This document shows, piece by piece, positions 22,988 through 31,012 of a stretch of 35,440 nt of DNA. Each line of letters opens with the position of its first letter. The first letter of the stretch is position 1. The notes under the pieces are model-generated. The model saw only the letters and a list, made by a program, of their open reading frames with translations. It searched no databases and was not told the origin of the DNA. This DNA comes from Nautiliaceae bacterium (lineage in GTDB: Bacteria; Campylobacterota; Campylobacteria; Campylobacterales; Nautiliaceae). The position numbers and the translations under genes were made by a program. The stretch is from positions 1-35,440 of the forward strand of contig JAMOSZ010000048.1 of NCBI GenBank assembly GCA_027062625.1, in the 5' to 3' direction.

Positions 22988-24671
22988 TATTTTGCTTTTT
23001 GTTACTTTTTTACCGCTTTTTTTTATACTTCCTGTTTTTATGAAAATTTATGCAATAATTGGGCTTTATTTTGTTTATAAAAAAAGATTACTTCCTCTTG
23101 CTTTACTTGGTGGAATTAGTATTTTGATAAGTTTTTATGATTTAGCTGAGATTAAGAATTTTGAAGTTTATTTGCAGCTTCTTGTTTCTTTGCTTTTATG
23201 GGCTGTTTATATGCAAAGGGTTAGGGGTGAGAATTTTTATCTAAGACTCTCTCCTTATCTCTTTTTTGGGATGGGAATTGTTGCTTTTCAAAATATTTAT
23301 ATGCTTTTTTATGCGGTGTTTGAGGTTTTTGTGTTTTTGTATGTAAATGTTAAGGAGTATTCAAAGTCTCCTTTAAAAGTTGCTACTTTAATTTTTCTCT
23401 CTTCAATTCCAATGGTTGTTGTTTTGTTTTTGTTTTTTCCAAGGACTTCTCAACAACACTTTATTTTTGGTTTTAGTTCAAAGAGTATAGAGAGTGGGTT
23501 TAGTAAAGTAGTAAATAGCAATTCTAAGGACTTAACGCCAACATCTTATCCAGTAGTTGAATTTAAGCTAAATAAAGATTATGGCAAACTCTATTTAAGA
23601 GGGGGAGTTTTTTATAATAATGTAAATGGAGTTTGGGTTAGAGGGTATGGAAGAGATGAGCTTGTTAGTTTTTCCAAAATGATTGAGTATTATTTAAAAG
23701 AGTATCCTACAAATTCAAAAGTTATCTTTGGAGTTGATTTGCCTTTGAAGAGTGATTATGGGATTAATGTGGATTTTATTTTGCTCTCTTTAAAACCTAT
23801 TAAAAAGCCTCTTTTTGTAAAAGTAACTTCTGCTCTTAAATATAAACTAAAACCTTATAGACTAAGAGAGGATATGTTTTTGTATGATAAAAGATTTAAT
23901 AAAAAAGCTCAAATTATTGCTAAGGAGTTAAGGAAAATAAAGGATGAGAGAAAGAGACTTAACAAATTAATAGAAATTTTTAAATCTCAAAAGATTGTTT
24001 ACACTCTAAAAGTTGGAGATGTGGATGGAAAAAATATAGTTGATTGGATTTTTGAGCATAAAAGAGGGTATTGTACTCATTTAGCTTCTGCTTTTGCTCT
24101 TTTTGCGAGGATGGCTGGGCTTGGGAGTAGGTTAGTTGGTGGATATTTAGTAAGTGGGAATGATGGATTTTATAAAGCCTATACAAAAGATGCTCATGTT
24201 TGGGATGAAATTTTGGTAAATGGATTTTGGGTGAGGGTTGATCCTGTGGAGTTTGTTTATAAAGTGGATAAAAAAACAAAAGAGGCACTAACTACTCCAA
24301 CTCTTAGCACTTATCTATCAATGGTAAGATTTATGATTGAGACTTGGATTTTAAGATATAATAAAAAGACTCAGAAAAGATTTTTGGAATCTTTAAAAAA
24401 TAATTTAACTTCATATTTAGTTGGGTTTTTGGGGTTTGTTTTGGTTATTTATCTTGTAGTAAAAAGAATTTATAAAAAAAGAGATATTTTAGAACCTCTT
24501 TATAAAAAACTTGGAAAAAGACCAAATAAGGAGAGTGTTTATCGGTTTTTGAAGGGGTTTAATGATAAGAAACTTGATGAAATAAATGAACTTTATTATA
24601 AAATAACTTACTATAAATCTTCAAAAGAAGACATTAAAAAGCTAAAAAAACTTATAAAAGAGTATAAATGA
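22956..24671 (+). CDS. TgpA-like membrane transglutaminase
   Basis: 571 aa: about six N-terminal transmembrane helices (residues 1-165), a periplasmic transglutaminase-core domain (~residues 320-435) and one C-terminal helix near residue 485 followed by a short cytoplasmic tail. The Cys-His-Asp triad is complete: C373 in GYCTHLASAFALFARMAG, H414 in DAHVWDE and D429 in VRVDPVEF. Known relatives (TgpA of Pseudomonas) are essential or envelope-related. Start at the ATG 22956 with AGAGGGG 5 nt upstream. Overlaps DUF58 and, by ATGA, the Crp/Fnr gene. Confidence 0.92.
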   Translation: MRFLKNLHSIDILLFVTFLPLFFILPVFMKIYAIIGLYFVYKKRLLPLALLGGISILISFYDLAEIKNFEVYLQLLVSLLLWAVYMQRVRGENFYLRLSPYLFFGMGIVAFQNIYMLFYAVFEVFVFLYVNVKEYSKSPLKVATLIFLSSIPMVVVLFLFFPRTSQQHFIFGFSSKSIESGFSKVVNSNSKDLTPTSYPVVEFKLNKDYGKLYLRGGVFYNNVNGVWVRGYGRDELVSFSKMIEYYLKEYPTNSKVIFGVDLPLKSDYGINVDFILLSLKPIKKPLFVKVTSALKYKLKPYRLREDMFLYDKRFNKKAQIIAKELRKIKDERKRLNKLIEIFKSQKIVYTLKVGDVDGKNIVDWIFEHKRGYCTHLASAFALFARMAGLGSRLVGGYLVSGNDGFYKAYTKDAHVWDEILVNGFWVRVDPVEFVYKVDKKTKEALTTPTLSTYLSMVRFMIETWILRYNKKTQKRFLESLKNNLTSYLVGFLGFVLVIYLVVKRIYKKRDILEPLYKKLGKRPNKESVYRFLKGFNDKKLDEINELYYKITYYKSSKEDIKKLKKLIKEYK

Positions 24672-25300
24672 GAGATATTTTTTTGTTTGAGAGTTTGAGT
24701 GAAGAGGAGTTAAAAGAGATTGAGAGTTTTTCTAAGAGGATTTACTTAAAAAAGGGAGATATTGTCTTTTATGAAAAAGAGTTGCCTTTATTTTTGCATA
24801 TAATATTAAAAGGGGAGGCGGTTGTTTATAAAGTAGATTCAAAAGGAAATGAATTAATTGTCCACAAATTTAATGCTCCATCTTTAATTGCTGAGCTTGC
24901 AAATTTAGAAAATATTCCTTATCCTGCAAATTGTAAGGTTATAAGTAATGAGGCAATTATTTTGAAGGTAGATTTTAAGAAGTTTTCTAAATTTTTGCAT
25001 AATCCAAAAATTTGTGTTAAAGTAATGAATTCTCTTTTAAAGAAGATGAGATTTCTTGATAATATGATATTAAATACTTTGGTTTTAGATGTTGAGAGTA
25101 GGATTGCGAAGTTTATTTATGAGAATGAAGAGGCTTTTTTGACTTTAAAGCAGCACAATATCGCAAAACTTTTAAAGATTACTCCCGAGACTCTTAGTAG
25201 AAAACTTAAAAAATTTAAAAAACTTGGGATTATTGAAAATAAAGAAGGGAAATTGGTTATTAAAGACAAAGAAGCAATAAAAAATTACTTCTCTTGGTAA
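24668..25300 (+). CDS. Crp/Fnr-family transcription regulator (HcpR-like candidate)
   Basis: 210 aa: an N-terminal cyclic-nucleotide-binding-type beta-roll (residues ~5-115, YLKKGDIVFYEKELPLFLHIILKGEAVVYK), a dimerisation helix and a C-terminal winged helix-turn-helix (LKQHNIAKLLKITPETLSRKLKKFKKLGII). It lacks the N-terminal cysteine set of FNR, so it should not carry FNR's 4Fe-4S sensor. It lies beside hemerythrin and hcp, and a perfect TTGAT-N4-ATCAA site stands upstream of hcp at 27197-27210. By analogy with HcpR/NssR/Dnr regulators it may respond to nitric oxide. It is coupled by a 4-nt overlap to the transglutaminase gene, so it may be expressed from the MoxR operon. Confidence 0.9.
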   Translation: MRDIFLFESLSEEELKEIESFSKRIYLKKGDIVFYEKELPLFLHIILKGEAVVYKVDSKGNELIVHKFNAPSLIAELANLENIPYPANCKVISNEAIILKVDFKKFSKFLHNPKICVKVMNSLLKKMRFLDNMILNTLVLDVESRIAKFIYENEEAFLTLKQHNIAKLLKITPETLSRKLKKFKKLGIIENKEGKLVIKDKEAIKNYFSW

Positions 25301-25721: not shown

Positions 25722-27146
25722 TTAGTTTGCTAAATCCTTGCCAAAATCTTTTTGAATGTCACCTGAAATAACACCTAAATTAAATTTTTCTACCAAGAAA
25801 TTTATTATATCCTCGTTTGCAAATTGTGGAGCGTTTGGTCCAATATAGATATCTTTAATTCCAAGACTAAGTAATGCTAAGAGGATAATAATAGCTTTTT
25901 GTTCCATCCACATAAGAGCAATTGATACTGGAAGCTTATTAATATCTTCAATTCCAAGTGCATTTGCCACAGTCAAAGCAATATGTACAGCCCCATTACT
26001 ATCGTTACATTGCCCAAGGTCAATATACCTTGGAATATCAGTCCCAGGTACTACTCCAAAATCAACATCGTTAAATCTAAATTTACCACAGCTTGATGTA
26101 ATAATAATATGGTCTTTTGGAACCGCAAGTGCTAACTCTCTAAAATAATTTCTCTTTTTACCAGGTGCGTCACATCCAGCAATTACCCATACTCTTTTTA
26201 ATTTACCTTCTTTGATTGCATCAAGAACTTTTGCTCCATATGCTTCAAGCACAGTTTTATAATGATGTCCTGTAACGATTTTTTCATCGCTATCAAATCC
26301 AGTAATATCTGGTAATTCAAGAGTGTGGTCAATTAGCGGGTCAAAGTTGTCGTTTTCAATTTTTTTAGCCCCTTCAACTCCTACGATTTTGTAAGTGTAG
26401 AGTCTGTCAATATAGTTTTTAACTTTTGGTGATTTTTCTGGTGGGACTATGCAGTTTGTATTTACTACACAAGTTCCACTCCATTTGCTAAAAATATCAG
26501 TTTGGTCATACCAAGCTTTACCGATGTTTCCTTTTAGTGCTTTGTATTTTTTTAGGTGAGGATATGCGTGAGCTGGGAGCATTTCTGAGTGAGTATAAAC
26601 TCCAATTTTATCACTTAAACCTCTCTCTTCAATTCTTTGAAGTAATTTTTCAAGCATATCAAGATTATGTCCTGATACTAAGATACCTTTTCCTTCGGCT
26701 TTATTTTGAGTAACTTCAACTGGTGCTGGAATACCAAGTGCTTTTGTGTGTAAGTCAGCGAGTAAATCCATTACTTTAACTCCTGCTTGACCAACTTTCA
26801 TAAGTTGAGAGATATGCTCATCAAAATTGAAGTTTACATTTGTTAATGTAAAGTATAGAGTCTCAGCTGTTACATCGTCAATCTCCATTAGTGTATTCCA
26901 TTCATTTTTGCTTCCGTGTTTTTCAATAAGCTCTCTTGCATGTTCTCTATATGCAGATAAACCTCTTAGCCCATAAGTCATAAGGTCTTGAAGTCTTGCT
27001 TTTGTAGCATCTTTACCACAAACCCCTTTGCTCTCTCCATGGCTTCCACATCCACCAGGTGTGCTCATTTCACATTGCCAGCAAAGAAATGGTAAATCGC
27101 AAGATTGTTTTTTTGATTTGTTTTCGTTTTTAAACATTCCAAACAT
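25722..27146 (-). CDS. hcp: Hydroxylamine reductase / hybrid cluster protein
   Basis: 474 aa from the ATG at 27146, which has AAGGAG 5 nt upstream; an in-frame upstream ATG at 27197 overlaps the regulatory box and lacks a site. N-terminal cluster cysteines are C22-x2-C25-x7-C33-x9-C43. Hybrid-cluster ligands are recognisable in VSGHNLDML, YTHSEMLPAH, SGTCVVNTNCIVPP, VIAGCDAPG, DLGQCNDSNGA and WMEQKA. The family reduces hydroxylamine to ammonia and also acts as NO reductase or S-nitrosylase. In Nautilia profundicola a hydroxylamine reductase has been proposed to serve nitrate assimilation, so it may be metabolic as well as protective. No hcr reductase gene is adjacent. Confidence 0.95.
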   Translation of the reverse strand: MFGMFKNENKSKKQSCDLPFLCWQCEMSTPGGCGSHGESKGVCGKDATKARLQDLMTYGLRGLSAYREHARELIEKHGSKNEWNTLMEIDDVTAETLYFTLTNVNFNFDEHISQLMKVGQAGVKVMDLLADLHTKALGIPAPVEVTQNKAEGKGILVSGHNLDMLEKLLQRIEERGLSDKIGVYTHSEMLPAHAYPHLKKYKALKGNIGKAWYDQTDIFSKWSGTCVVNTNCIVPPEKSPKVKNYIDRLYTYKIVGVEGAKKIENDNFDPLIDHTLELPDITGFDSDEKIVTGHHYKTVLEAYGAKVLDAIKEGKLKRVWVIAGCDAPGKKRNYFRELALAVPKDHIIITSSCGKFRFNDVDFGVVPGTDIPRYIDLGQCNDSNGAVHIALTVANALGIEDINKLPVSIALMWMEQKAIIILLALLSLGIKDIYIGPNAPQFANEDIINFLVEKFNLGVISGDIQKDFGKDLAN

Positions 27147-27168
27147 TGTTTCTCCTTTTTTTTTAGGT

Positions 27169-27174
27169 ATTTTA
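27169..27174 (-). promoter_or_regulatory. -10 element (TAAAAT) for hcp
   Basis: TAAAAT on the minus strand predicts a start near 27162 and a 16-nt leader before the ATG at 27146. The TTGAT-N4-ATCAA box is centred at 27203.5, i.e. -41.5, the class II activator position. Confidence 0.6.
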
Positions 27175-27196
27175 GTTATTATTTTGATAAATTTCA

Positions 27197-27210
27197 TTGA
27201 TTTGAATCAA
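27197..27210. promoter_or_regulatory. FNR/HcpR-type operator between hcp and reverse gyrase
   Basis: TTGATTTGAATCAA is a perfect match to the FNR consensus TTGAT-N4-ATCAA and to the HcpR half-sites TTGA-N6-TCAA. The palindrome extends to 16 bp with A at 27196 and T at 27211. It is centred at -41.5 for hcp (activation position). It also overlaps the expected start of rgy transcription if rgy uses GATAAA at 27186-27191, ending 2 nt before the rgy ribosome site, where binding would repress. Confidence 0.8.
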
Positions 27211-27222
27211 TAAAGGAGAGAA

Positions 27223-30200
27223 ATGCTAAAAGCTATTTATAAAAACCGCTGCCCAAGATGTCTTGGGGATATTACATCTATTAGATTATCAAAAGGGGAA
27301 TTTTGTGATAAGTGTATGAGGGAGATTGATAGTTTTGAGTGTGAAGAGTTAGGAGAATTTAAGAGATTTTGCATAGCTTCTAAAAAGTTAGAGGAGTTTG
27401 AGGAGTTTTTTTATAATAAAACTTCAAATTATTTAACATCAATTCAGAAAATGTGGGCTAAGAGATTTTTTCTTGGCAACTCTTTTGCACTTCTTGCACC
27501 AACTGGGATTGGGAAAAGTACTTTTGGCATATTGCTTAGTGCGTTTGTCAAAAATTCATATATTGTTTTGCCAACAAAACTATTAGTTATACAGACATTA
27601 AATGAGCTCAAAGAGTTTGGGATTGATGCTTTGGCTTATACTGGTAGGAAAGAAGAGAAAGAGAAGATAAAAAAGGGAGAATATGATATTTTAATTACTA
27701 CAACTCAATTTCTTTATAAAAACAAAGAGATTATCAAAAAAGAGTTTGAGCTTGTGTTTGTTGATGATGTTGATAGTATTTTAAAATCTGGCAAAAAGAT
27801 AGAGGATGTTTTAGAGCTTCTTGGATTTAGCAAGGAGGATTTAAAAAGAGCTTATGAGTTGATTGAAAAAAAAGAGTATGAAAAACTAAGTGAAATTGCT
27901 AAGAAAAGAAAAGGCAATCTCTTAGTCTCATCAGCTACTGCGAATCCAAAAAGTAAAAGAGTATTACTTTTTAAATATTTGTTAGGTTTTGAAGTTAGCA
28001 AACCAAATCTTAGTTTAAGAAATATTGAGGATTTGTATGATGAGAATTTTTCTTGGGAGAGGTCAATTGAGTGGATAAAAAGGCTTGGGAGGGGCGGGCT
28101 TTTGTTTTTGCCCGGGAATGAGACAAAAGAGAGGTTAAAAGAGTATATTGAGTTTCTTGGAAAAAATGGTATTAAGGCATACTCTTATGAAGAGTTTAAT
28201 GAGTATTTGAATGAGTTTATAAGAGGAGAGTGCTATTTTGTAGGATTTGCAAGTTATCGCAATCCATTGGCAAGAGGGATAGATTTGCCAGAAGCTATAA
28301 GGTATACTCTTTTTATTGGGGTGCCTAAGATGGAGTTTAATTTAAGTAGCGATGATTTTAGAGGGCTTTATTTTATTTTGTTATCACTCTTTCCTTATCT
28401 TCTTAGAAAAAGACTTATAGACTCAAAAAAAGCTTTTGAAATTCAAAATTATATAAATCTTTTAAAAAAATATATCTTTTGGAATTTCAATTTACCAAAT
28501 GAGAGGTTAGAAGAGATAGCAAAAAAAGCAAAAGAGCTTATAAGAGAGTATGAAGAAGAGATAAAAAACTCTCCTGAGATTAGTTTTGATGGAGAGAAGA
28601 TACTCACTGCTGATATTACCGGTTATATTCAAGCAAGTGGAAGAGCAAGTAGATTTTACAAAGGGCATCTTACAAAGGGAATTGCTTTGGTATTGGTTGA
28701 TAATCAAAAAGCTTTTTACTCTCTTAGAAAAAAGCTTAAATGGTTTAGTGAAGCTGAATTTAAGAAGGTTTTAGATGTAAATTTAGATGAGATTTTAAGA
28801 GAAGTTGATGAGAGTAGAAAAGTTGATAAAAAACTTAATTTAAAGACAACTTTTGTAATTGTAGAATCTCCAACAAAAGCAAAAACAATTAGCTCCTTTT
28901 TTGGTAAGCCAAGCAAGAGAATTGTTAATGGAGTTAGTGTTTGGGAAATTTTGCTTGAAGATAGGGTTTTGCTTATTAGTGCAAGTATTGGGCACGATTT
29001 TGATTTGAGTGAGAGGGAGGGAGTTTTTGGGGTTGTTGATAAGTATGTGCCTGTTTTTAGGGTATTGGAAGAAAAAGATAGGATTTTGAATGCTTTTAAT
29101 TTAACAAGTAGTGAGGTTGATGAGATTTTCGTTGCTACTGACCCTGATAGAGAAGGAGAGAAAATCTCTTTTGATTTGAGTTTGAATAATAAGCCATATA
29201 ACCTTAACATCAAAAGAGCTGAATTTCACGAAATTACAAAGTATGCGTTTAGAGAGGCTTTGAAACATCCAAGGGATGTTGATTTGAATTTGGTAGCGGC
29301 TCAATTTGTAAGAAGGATTTTGGATAGGTGGGTTGGATTTAAAGTCTCTTTATATCTTCAAAAACTCTTAAACAACCCCCATCTCTCAGCTGGAAGAGTC
29401 CAAACACCTGTTTTAAAATGGATTTGTGAGAGGACTTTAAAGTTAAAAGAAAAAGTTTATGTAGTAAGGGTTGAGTTTGATGATGTTAGGGTTGAATTTG
29501 AGTTTGATAAAAAAGAAGAAGCTAAAAAATTTTATGAAGAGATAAAAGAGGTTGAAGTAAAAAAGATAGAGGAGAGAAAAGAGGAGCTTTTTGAGATGCC
29601 TTTTAACACTTCTGAGATGTTAAAAGAGGCATCAGTTAAGCTTAAATTTTCTCCTCAAAAGACAATGACCTTAGCCCAAGAGCTTTTTGAGATGGGGTTT
29701 ATTACTTATCACCGCACAGACTCTCATAGAATCTCATCTCTTGGGATGAAAATTGCAAAAGAGTATATAAAAGAGAATTTTGGGGATGAGTTTGTAAAGA
29801 GTAGGAGTTTTGAAGAAGGTGGAGCACATGAGGCTATAAGAGCGACAACTTCAATGGATAAAGAGGATTTAGAGAGTTTTGCACTCTCAAAAGGGATTGA
29901 GCTAAGCTTTGAGCATTTGAGACTTTATGATTTGATTTTTAGGAAATTTATAGCTTCTCAAATGAGAGAAGTTGAGGTTAAAAAAGAGATTTTTGAAATT
30001 ATTTGCAAAAGAGAGGAATTTGTTACTCAAATTTTAAGGGATGGATTTAACTTAATCTATCCTATAAAAGTTTATAATATAAAAGAAGGGATAAAAGAGG
30101 TTAAGAAGAGTTATTTTGAAAAATCAAAGTATCCTCCATTTACATATGCCGATATTATTGAGATGATGAAAAAAAGAGGGATTGGAAGACCATCAACTTA

Positions 30201-30432
30201 CGCTATTACCATTGAAAAGCTACTTGATAGAGGGTATGTTGTAGAAAAAAACGGATACCTTTTTGCAACAAGGCTTGGATTTAAAGTGGTTGAGATAGTT
30301 TATAACTCTTCTTTTAGCGAGTTTGTAAGCGAGGAGTTTACCGCAAAGCTTGAAGAGATTATGGATGAGATTGAAAGAGGAGAGAGGGATTATAAAGAGG
30401 AGCTTACTTTGCTTTTTTCTTTACTCTTTTAA
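27223..30432 (+). CDS. rgy: Reverse gyrase
   Basis: A 1069-aa fusion of an SF2 helicase and a type IA topoisomerase that introduces positive supercoils into DNA. In order: N-terminal zinc finger (C10, C13, C28, C31); Q-motif Q75; Walker A LLAPTGIGKST (K98); DEAD-box equivalent VDDVD; SSATANPKS; helicase domain 2 with GLLFLPGNE, ARGIDLPEA and GYIQASGRASRF. The Toprim start FVIVESPTKAKTISSFFG (~residue 543) follows, then the acidic DPDRE (D640, D642, E644) and the catalytic Tyr829 in ITYHRTDSHRIS. The second zinc finger found in the Toprim insertion of many homologues is missing: no Cys pairs follow GHDFDL. AAAGGAG site 4 nt before the ATG. Probable monocistron, overlapping the convergent hydroxylase gene by 29 nt. 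Confidence 0.97.
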   Translation: MLKAIYKNRCPRCLGDITSIRLSKGEFCDKCMREIDSFECEELGEFKRFCIASKKLEEFEEFFYNKTSNYLTSIQKMWAKRFFLGNSFALLAPTGIGKSTFGILLSAFVKNSYIVLPTKLLVIQTLNELKEFGIDALAYTGRKEEKEKIKKGEYDILITTTQFLYKNKEIIKKEFELVFVDDVDSILKSGKKIEDVLELLGFSKEDLKRAYELIEKKEYEKLSEIAKKRKGNLLVSSATANPKSKRVLLFKYLLGFEVSKPNLSLRNIEDLYDENFSWERSIEWIKRLGRGGLLFLPGNETKERLKEYIEFLGKNGIKAYSYEEFNEYLNEFIRGECYFVGFASYRNPLARGIDLPEAIRYTLFIGVPKMEFNLSSDDFRGLYFILLSLFPYLLRKRLIDSKKAFEIQNYINLLKKYIFWNFNLPNERLEEIAKKAKELIREYEEEIKNSPEISFDGEKILTADITGYIQASGRASRFYKGHLTKGIALVLVDNQKAFYSLRKKLKWFSEAEFKKVLDVNLDEILREVDESRKVDKKLNLKTTFVIVESPTKAKTISSFFGKPSKRIVNGVSVWEILLEDRVLLISASIGHDFDLSEREGVFGVVDKYVPVFRVLEEKDRILNAFNLTSSEVDEIFVATDPDREGEKISFDLSLNNKPYNLNIKRAEFHEITKYAFREALKHPRDVDLNLVAAQFVRRILDRWVGFKVSLYLQKLLNNPHLSAGRVQTPVLKWICERTLKLKEKVYVVRVEFDDVRVEFEFDKKEEAKKFYEEIKEVEVKKIEERKEELFEMPFNTSEMLKEASVKLKFSPQKTMTLAQELFEMGFITYHRTDSHRISSLGMKIAKEYIKENFGDEFVKSRSFEEGGAHEAIRATTSMDKEDLESFALSKGIELSFEHLRLYDLIFRKFIASQMREVEVKKEIFEIICKREEFVTQILRDGFNLIYPIKVYNIKEGIKEVKKSYFEKSKYPPFTYADIIEMMKKRGIGRPSTYAITIEKLLDRGYVVEKNGYLFATRLGFKVVEIVYNSSFSEFVSEEFTAKLEEIMDEIERGERDYKEELTLLFSLLF

Positions 30433-31012
30433 GCTTTTCAATCCCTTTTAAATCCTCTGCACTCCATTGATAGTATGTACCAAAAACTCTATCCCAAATA
30501 TCAGTAGTAATTCCGTGGTTTAATTTTGGTTTTTTGTGATGGACAAAGTGAAACTCTTGCATATATCTCCAATATTTGCTTTTAAATTCTCTTCTGTGCA
30601 TAATATGGTGCATAATCCCATAGTTAAAATATCCAAGAGTCATTCCCCCAACAATTGCCAAAGCATCTGGTAAAGGCATAATAAAATGTAATATCCAAAC
30701 AAAAAATATTGCAATTACCGCACTCATAAAAAATGGCATTGCATCGTAGCTAAAAGGATTTTGATGGTGATGTGCGTGACCTTCTATAAAAACTTTTAGT
30801 GGATGATTTTCGTGAAATAGCCAAGCGTGAACCGCATACTCTAAAAATGTAAAAAAAATAGCTCCAACTACAAAGAATGCAATGCTTGCCCAAATATCTT
30901 TTGAGTAGTAGATGCTAAGAATTAAAAATGTAATTGCGGTTAGAAAGTCAGTTGCTAAGCTTAAATAGTAATTCCATTTGCTTGCGGTCATTTTGAGTAT
31001 TAGCTCTTTCAT
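30404..31012 (-). CDS. Fatty acid hydroxylase / sterol desaturase family membrane protein
   Basis: 202 aa, four hydrophobic segments and the histidine clusters of the di-iron membrane hydroxylases: HAWLFHENH, GHAHHHQNPF, MHHIMHRREF and EFHFVHHKKP. The size and spacing fit the family (PF04116) of carotenoid/fatty acid hydroxylase-like proteins rather than an eukaryotic sterol desaturase. It probably hydroxylates a lipid acyl or related chain, an O2-dependent reaction that is notable in a presumably microaerophilic or anaerobic cell. Perfect AAGGAGGGG ribosome site. It is driven from the palindromic promoter region 31038-31064, shared with the Pqi operon. Confidence 0.9.
   Translation of the reverse strand: MKELILKMTASKWNYYLSLATDFLTAITFLILSIYYSKDIWASIAFFVVGAIFFTFLEYAVHAWLFHENHPLKVFIEGHAHHHQNPFSYDAMPFFMSAVIAIFFVWILHFIMPLPDALAIVGGMTLGYFNYGIMHHIMHRREFKSKYWRYMQEFHFVHHKKPKLNHGITTDIWDRVFGTYYQWSAEDLKGIEKLKRVKKKAK

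Follow-up and report, generated by a model that had tools for sequence, protein, structure and literature searches.

Does a reverse gyrase lacking the second of its zinc fingers, encoded in the genome of a campylobacterium of the family Nautiliaceae, represent a working gene of that lineage, and does the missing finger have anything to do with life at moderate temperature? The locus that raises this question lies in a 35,440-nucleotide stretch of DNA (hereafter the window), which is one contig of a 1.48-Mb Nautiliaceae genome with 99.92% completeness and 0.02% contamination. The accessible parts of two earlier papers establish that the presence of reverse gyrase in Nautiliales has been known since 2009 (PMC2628731) and the variability of the second finger since 2019 (PMC6878951); what is novel here beyond these points is the tracing of the finger deletion to a single old event that also covers Aquifex, together with a relic of the gene in one Nautiliaceae genome and copies of it in two other phyla. 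Our analysis identifies the gene of the window as a real but ordinary reverse gyrase of vent Nautiliaceae, and we consider it very probable that it is functional and vertically inherited, with its finger lost once on the stem of a large branch. The intact gene, its motifs, predicted fold, neighbourhood and clade, and a deletion that amounts to one change on an unrooted tree, are what the analysis shows directly.

The open reading frame of rgy, for which the first-pass annotation had given exact coordinates, strand and frame, reaches 1077 bits over the whole protein with TIGR01054, the NCBIfam model for reverse gyrase (cut-off 471.7), and the Pfam models zf_Rg, DEAD, Toprim and Topoisom_bac each score above their own cut-offs in its product (Table 1). 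The latter three domains, together with the comparison of a structural model with PDB entry 4ddt, define a single chain in which a helicase-like domain at the N-terminus is joined to a type IA topoisomerase at the C-terminus. All helicase motifs are present, and further motifs were located at residues 181 (DDVD), 236 (SSAT), 350 (ARGIDLP), 470 (QASGRASR) and 547 (VESPTKA); Tyr829, E548, D640, D642 and E644 are invariant across 41 aligned sequences. Each of the motifs named in that annotation as retained, namely the N-terminal Cys4 finger, Walker A, the DxDxE cluster and Tyr829, was thus found at its place. The protein has nine cysteines in total (10, 13, 28, 31, 40, 50, 337, 735 and 928), of which those of the first finger are conserved in 81/82 (C10), 82/82 (C13), 83/83 (C28) and 83/83 (C31) of the aligned rows having a residue there. 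Two further cysteines after this finger, C40 and C50, which that annotation did not mention, are likewise Cys in 75/79 and 76/83 rows with a residue; since the pair is family-wide, we rejected its interpretation as a replacement metal site peculiar to the finger-less group.

An AlphaFold2 model built from 41 aligned sequences has a mean pLDDT of 88.2 and a pTM of 0.85. Structure comparison matched it to the Thermotoga maritima reverse gyrase (8ofb, Z 40.8; 4ddt, Z 39.7 over 1020 residues) and to that of A. fulgidus (1gku, Z 37.5), in agreement with Foldseek, and these matches span nearly the full length of the model (954-1024 residues aligned). The whole fold and all catalytic motifs are hence held in common with the T. 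maritima enzyme. The same genome also contains two other type IA topoisomerase-like genes, at C11:25698-27332 (with a TopA-like match) and C23:17323-18849.

Table 1. Features of the reverse gyrase locus, with positions in the window.
Feature	Position	Strand	Basis
rgy, reverse gyrase, 1069 aa, intact	27223..30432	+	ATG to stop; profile, domain and structure-model matches
N-terminal Cys4 zinc finger, residues 10-31 (C10, C13, C28, C31)	27250..27315	+	zf_Rg PF17915, 38.3 bits; motif
Walker A APTGIGKST, residues 92-100	27496..27522	+	motif
Toprim stretch GHDFDL to DPD, residues 590-640, expected site of second zinc finger; insert deleted, Cys 0	28990..29142	+	alignments, motif
Acidic cluster DPDREGE, residues 640-646 (DPDRE 640-644)	29140..29160	+	motif
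Active-site TYHRTDS, residues 828-834 (Tyr829)	29704..29724	+	motif
hcp, hybrid cluster protein / hydroxylamine reductase, divergent neighbour of rgy	25722..27197	-	TIGR01703 489 bits, cut-off 360.8; Prismane PF03063
Fatty acid hydroxylase-type gene, conserved downstream neighbour	30404..31012	-	PF04116
Crp/Fnr-family regulator, conserved neighbour	24668..25300	+	PF13545, PF00027
FNR/HcpR-like palindrome TTGATTTGAATCAA, between hcp and rgy	27197..27210	.	pattern match and conserved position

The Cys pairs expected after the GHDFDL motif of the Toprim domain are gone, as had been claimed: by both sequence and alignment, no Cys occurs in residues 590-640, from GHDFDL to DPDREGE, and a clean gap stands at the finger insert when the protein is aligned with relatives that keep it. 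T. maritima, whose enzyme is the nearest PDB sequence, retains the Cys-pair insert, in contrast to the window. In the model, blocks of residues 601-640 have pLDDT values of 91-94. We compared the Toprim insert across 88 reverse gyrases, comprising that of the window, those of the other genomes of families f1 (Nautiliaceae) and f18, and loci from a contig scan (best 80 of 313 relatives), with 15 of 102 locus proteins omitted (10 repeats of included genes and 5 TopA or partial loci). The insert is absent in 72 rows, the window's included, present with four or more Cys in 11, and present with two or no Cys in 5. Because the set was picked by similarity to the Campylobacterota enzymes, these shares cannot be extended to reverse gyrases in general. 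Proteins at five loci (L077, L082, L101, L098 and L099) retain the insert with two or all four of the Cys gone, and are possible intermediate states of finger loss. According to the accessible part of a 2019 survey (PMC6878951), only 62% of reverse gyrases conserve the second finger, and its absence accordingly does not decide membership in the family.

We then mapped the insert on an unrooted tree of 79 rows (the 88 minus 7 near-identical and 2 short), built without the insert columns. Its presence or absence amounts to one change, which covers all 65 finger-less rows, Aquifex among them. The finger-less side of the tree holds the Nautiliaceae, Nitratiruptor-like, Hydrogenothermaceae, Aquificaceae (including Aquifex), Brockarchaeota, Mnemosynella and Woesearchaeota enzymes along with a few other rows. 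Among the Aquificaceae, Calderobacterium is said to have been the source of an early reverse gyrase purification; a search of the accessible literature for reverse gyrase in this genus found no report. The Nitratiruptor-like and Persephonella/Hydrogenothermaceae enzymes, at 45-53% identity to that of the window, belong to the same large branch and have the same deletion. The deletion is therefore one old event common to the Nautiliaceae and Aquifex enzymes, which is what this analysis adds, and its direction would be a loss of the finger rather than a gain. Accordingly, a reading of the absence as special to the window enzyme is not supported: it is shared with Aquifex and other Aquificota, and incomplete conservation of the finger has a precedent in the accessible text of PMC6878951.

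How might such an enzyme work? Family knowledge and the published induction of the Nautilia profundicola gene, which exceeds 100-fold when the temperature is 20 C higher than the optimum (PMC2628731, in its accessible part), suggest ATP-driven positive supercoiling or DNA protection in heat pulses as the likely role. The helicase-like half would spend ATP to drive the type IA topoisomerase half (with Tyr829 and the Toprim acids) through strand passage, which would in turn generate positive supercoils and protect DNA as vent heat rises. The second finger would have been lost once, in the stem lineage of a large reverse gyrase branch and long before the Nautiliaceae arose, and the Toprim loop would close without it, such that the finger-less enzyme may still supercoil positively. 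Alternatively, positive supercoiling might be gone, leaving mainly a heat-inducible DNA chaperone or an ATP-stimulated relaxase; supercoiling-independent chaperoning by reverse gyrase is the subject, to judge by its title, of a work that PMC2628731 cites. We regard this as improbable, given that the helicase and topoisomerase residues are all retained, that the same deletion occurs in Aquifex and other Aquificota rows, that part of the second finger is often missing from the TopR1-like enzymes of Crenarchaeota (PMC6878951, in its accessible part) and that the S. solfataricus TopR1, to judge by the title of a cited work, controls supercoiling.

A much smaller chance still attaches to a recent loss of the finger within Nautiliaceae that would have adapted the enzyme to moderate temperature. 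All the Nautiliaceae and Nitratiruptor-like enzymes do lack it, and their hosts, as far as known, are moderate thermophiles; however, the one change on the tree that accounts for all 65 finger-less rows, those of Aquifex included, already contradicts this. Aquifex is well established as a hyperthermophile, and its position on the finger-less branch uncouples the loss from moderate temperature. We accordingly reject a link between the missing finger and moderate temperature.

The surroundings of the gene are those of its own family. In all 12 other Nautiliaceae neighbourhoods hcp lies on the same side of rgy, one of them having only a relic of the latter. The fatty acid hydroxylase gene follows rgy in 11 of the 12, the twelfth contig stopping within rgy; the Crp/Fnr-type gene likewise occurs in 11, the exception being a contig that begins within the surroundings of hcp. 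These hcp, hydroxylase and Crp/Fnr neighbours were not found around rgy in either of the two Nitratiruptor-like genomes examined. Because the neighbours are conserved across Nautiliaceae and not in the Nitratiruptor-like genomes, this pattern points to a single arrival of rgy at the hcp site in the ancestor of Nautiliaceae, followed by vertical descent. N. profundicola, which with Caminibacter mediatlanticus was treated by Campbell et al. in 2009 (PMC2628731, in its accessible part), belongs to the same host family and has the orthologous gene; in a genome that is probably that of this species (G013), the protein is 64-65% identical to that of the window, likewise lacks the second finger and is encoded near hcp, with a spacing of about 1.4 kb as against 74 bases in the window. 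The true start of hcp is probably an inner ATG at 27146, as suggested by a ribosome-binding site and the alignment of homologues.

Phylogenetic analysis places the rgy of the window in the Nautiliaceae clade with a support of 99 in both of two trees (79-row and 34-row), with no placement as a hyperthermophile contaminant. Contamination from a hyperthermophile, to which the otherwise predominant occurrence of reverse gyrase in organisms growing above 65 C (PMC6878951, in its accessible part) might lend some appeal, is contradicted by this clade, the conserved neighbours, the matching G+C content (0.325 in rgy vs 0.323 in the window) and the 0.02% contamination of the genome, and has next to no likelihood. 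Neighbourhood, composition and tree speak equally against misassembly, and the gene stands as one of a Nautiliaceae chromosome, as had been proposed.

Reverse gyrase had previously been reported in N. profundicola, C. mediatlanticus, Nitratiruptor and, by PCR, Lebetimonas acidiphila (PMC2628731), as well as in L. natsushimae and Ni. tergarcus (PMC6878951), and almost all Nautiliales genomes are said to carry it (PMC10696704), in each case according to the accessible part of the source. Among the matches listed for the 21 Nautiliaceae genomes searched, 13 have an intact rgy, one (G002) has it cut by a contig end, one (G005) has a fragment at a contig end and one (G011) has a relic; among the same matches it was not found in 5, all of them incomplete (57-89%). 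In a sample of the phylum, 18 of 397 genomes match at an E-value of 1e-110 or better, of which 9 belong to Nautiliaceae (the relic included) and 9 to f18. The supposed rarity of the gene thus holds for the phylum and fails for Nautiliaceae. In G056, an 82% complete genome of a family (f22) outside these two, L130 3719-4156 and L131 3724-4428, each at a contig end, hold one end apiece of a Nitratiruptor-like reverse gyrase; the other searched genome of its genus (G041) showed no reverse gyrase above the cut-off.

The relic in G011, a 99% complete Nautiliaceae genome, lies beside hcp at L129 1569-3118, beginning 91 bases from the hcp match. Its first half is gone and it has one frameshift; it matches residues about 563-613 and, after the frameshift, about 619-1070 of the sister protein, and no N-terminal reverse gyrase part of this genome was found among the matches listed. 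This lineage has lost the gene, whose function is therefore dispensable in some Nautiliaceae.

The next relatives of the Nautiliaceae clade are two Caldisericaceae sequences, which form its sister group with a support of 100. Beyond these come the Nitratiruptor-like and Hydrogenothermaceae groups, in a branching order that the trees do not fix. A single origin of rgy in Campylobacterota received a support of 81 in the 34-row tree, on which the topology tests were run; the alternative of Nautiliaceae with Hydrogenothermaceae is equally good (p-AU 0.537). Transfer of the gene is plausible for the vent clade as a whole. The two Caldisericaceae sequences (L029 493-3729 and L030 1575-4808), along with a third (L142 from 2850), are 56-57% identical to the protein of the window. 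Reverse gyrase is present in 6 of 18 Caldisericaceae genomes, 3 of which, the query genome included, have this Nautiliaceae-sister type and 3 another type (46-47% identity).

A full-length Nautiliaceae-type reverse gyrase of 1081 aa, 64% identical to that of the window, was also recovered at L027 5992-9237, on a 159 kb contig of a genome (G060) of the Flavobacteriales (Bacteroidota). It is nested inside the Nautiliaceae with supports of 98 (79-row) and 95 (34-row), a placement outside them not being rejected (p-AU 0.207). The copy sits with a thioredoxin-like gene between recN and fabI, which adjoin each other in the nearest congener (G199); this adjacency occurs in 1 of the 6 congeners fetched (7 genomes had a recN match, G060 aside), and the order dnaB, 436-aa gene, recN is kept in 6/6 congeners. 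Its G+C of 0.481 differs from that of its flanks (0.38-0.40) and of the Nautiliaceae loci (0.27-0.33), and it is hence not a plain Nautiliaceae fragment. Among 120 genomes of its family, the Nautiliaceae-type copy is found in G060 itself alone. Transfer of reverse gyrase into Kryptonia, of the same superphylum as Bacteroidota, has been described (PMC4737851, in its accessible part); a literature search on horizontal transfer of reverse gyrase in this direction found none into Bacteroidota proper.

The gap between hcp and rgy holds a candidate FNR/HcpR-like box. Its palindrome is the only match to TTGAYNNNNRTCAA in the window, which is weak when taken alone, with 0.30 expected by chance. However, a TTGA[TC]NNNN[AG]TCAA box occurs upstream of hcp in 13/13 Nautiliaceae neighbourhoods, the window included, and resembles the published consensus sequences of HcpR (TTGACnnnnGTCAA) and FNR (TTGATnnnnATCAA) in the accessible part of PMC1274295. 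In 8 of the 13, rgy starts no more than 220 bases from the hcp match, which puts the box in the gap between the two genes; in one the gap leads to the rgy relic, and in the other 4 the box remains beside hcp, with rgy 1.4-7 kb distant. The box most likely serves hcp, and these last cases leave control of rgy by it unsupported as a general rule.

Tempting as it is to connect the loss of the second finger with life at moderate temperature, these results show the connection to be wrong. Somewhat more tentatively, at a likelihood we would place a little below even, the whole finger-less branch, from 40 C vent bacteria to Aquifex, may consist of working enzymes, with the Nautiliaceae form being a heat-tolerance gene that is portable among vent bacteria, as its copy in a Bacteroidota chromosome and the sister type in Caldisericaceae suggest, and that can be lost, as in G011. 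If a natural finger-less branch does work, positive supercoiling in vivo would not require the second finger. The Nautiliaceae offer a compact, culturable family for testing that requirement, and for comparison there are one relative that has naturally lost the gene and the copies in two other phyla.
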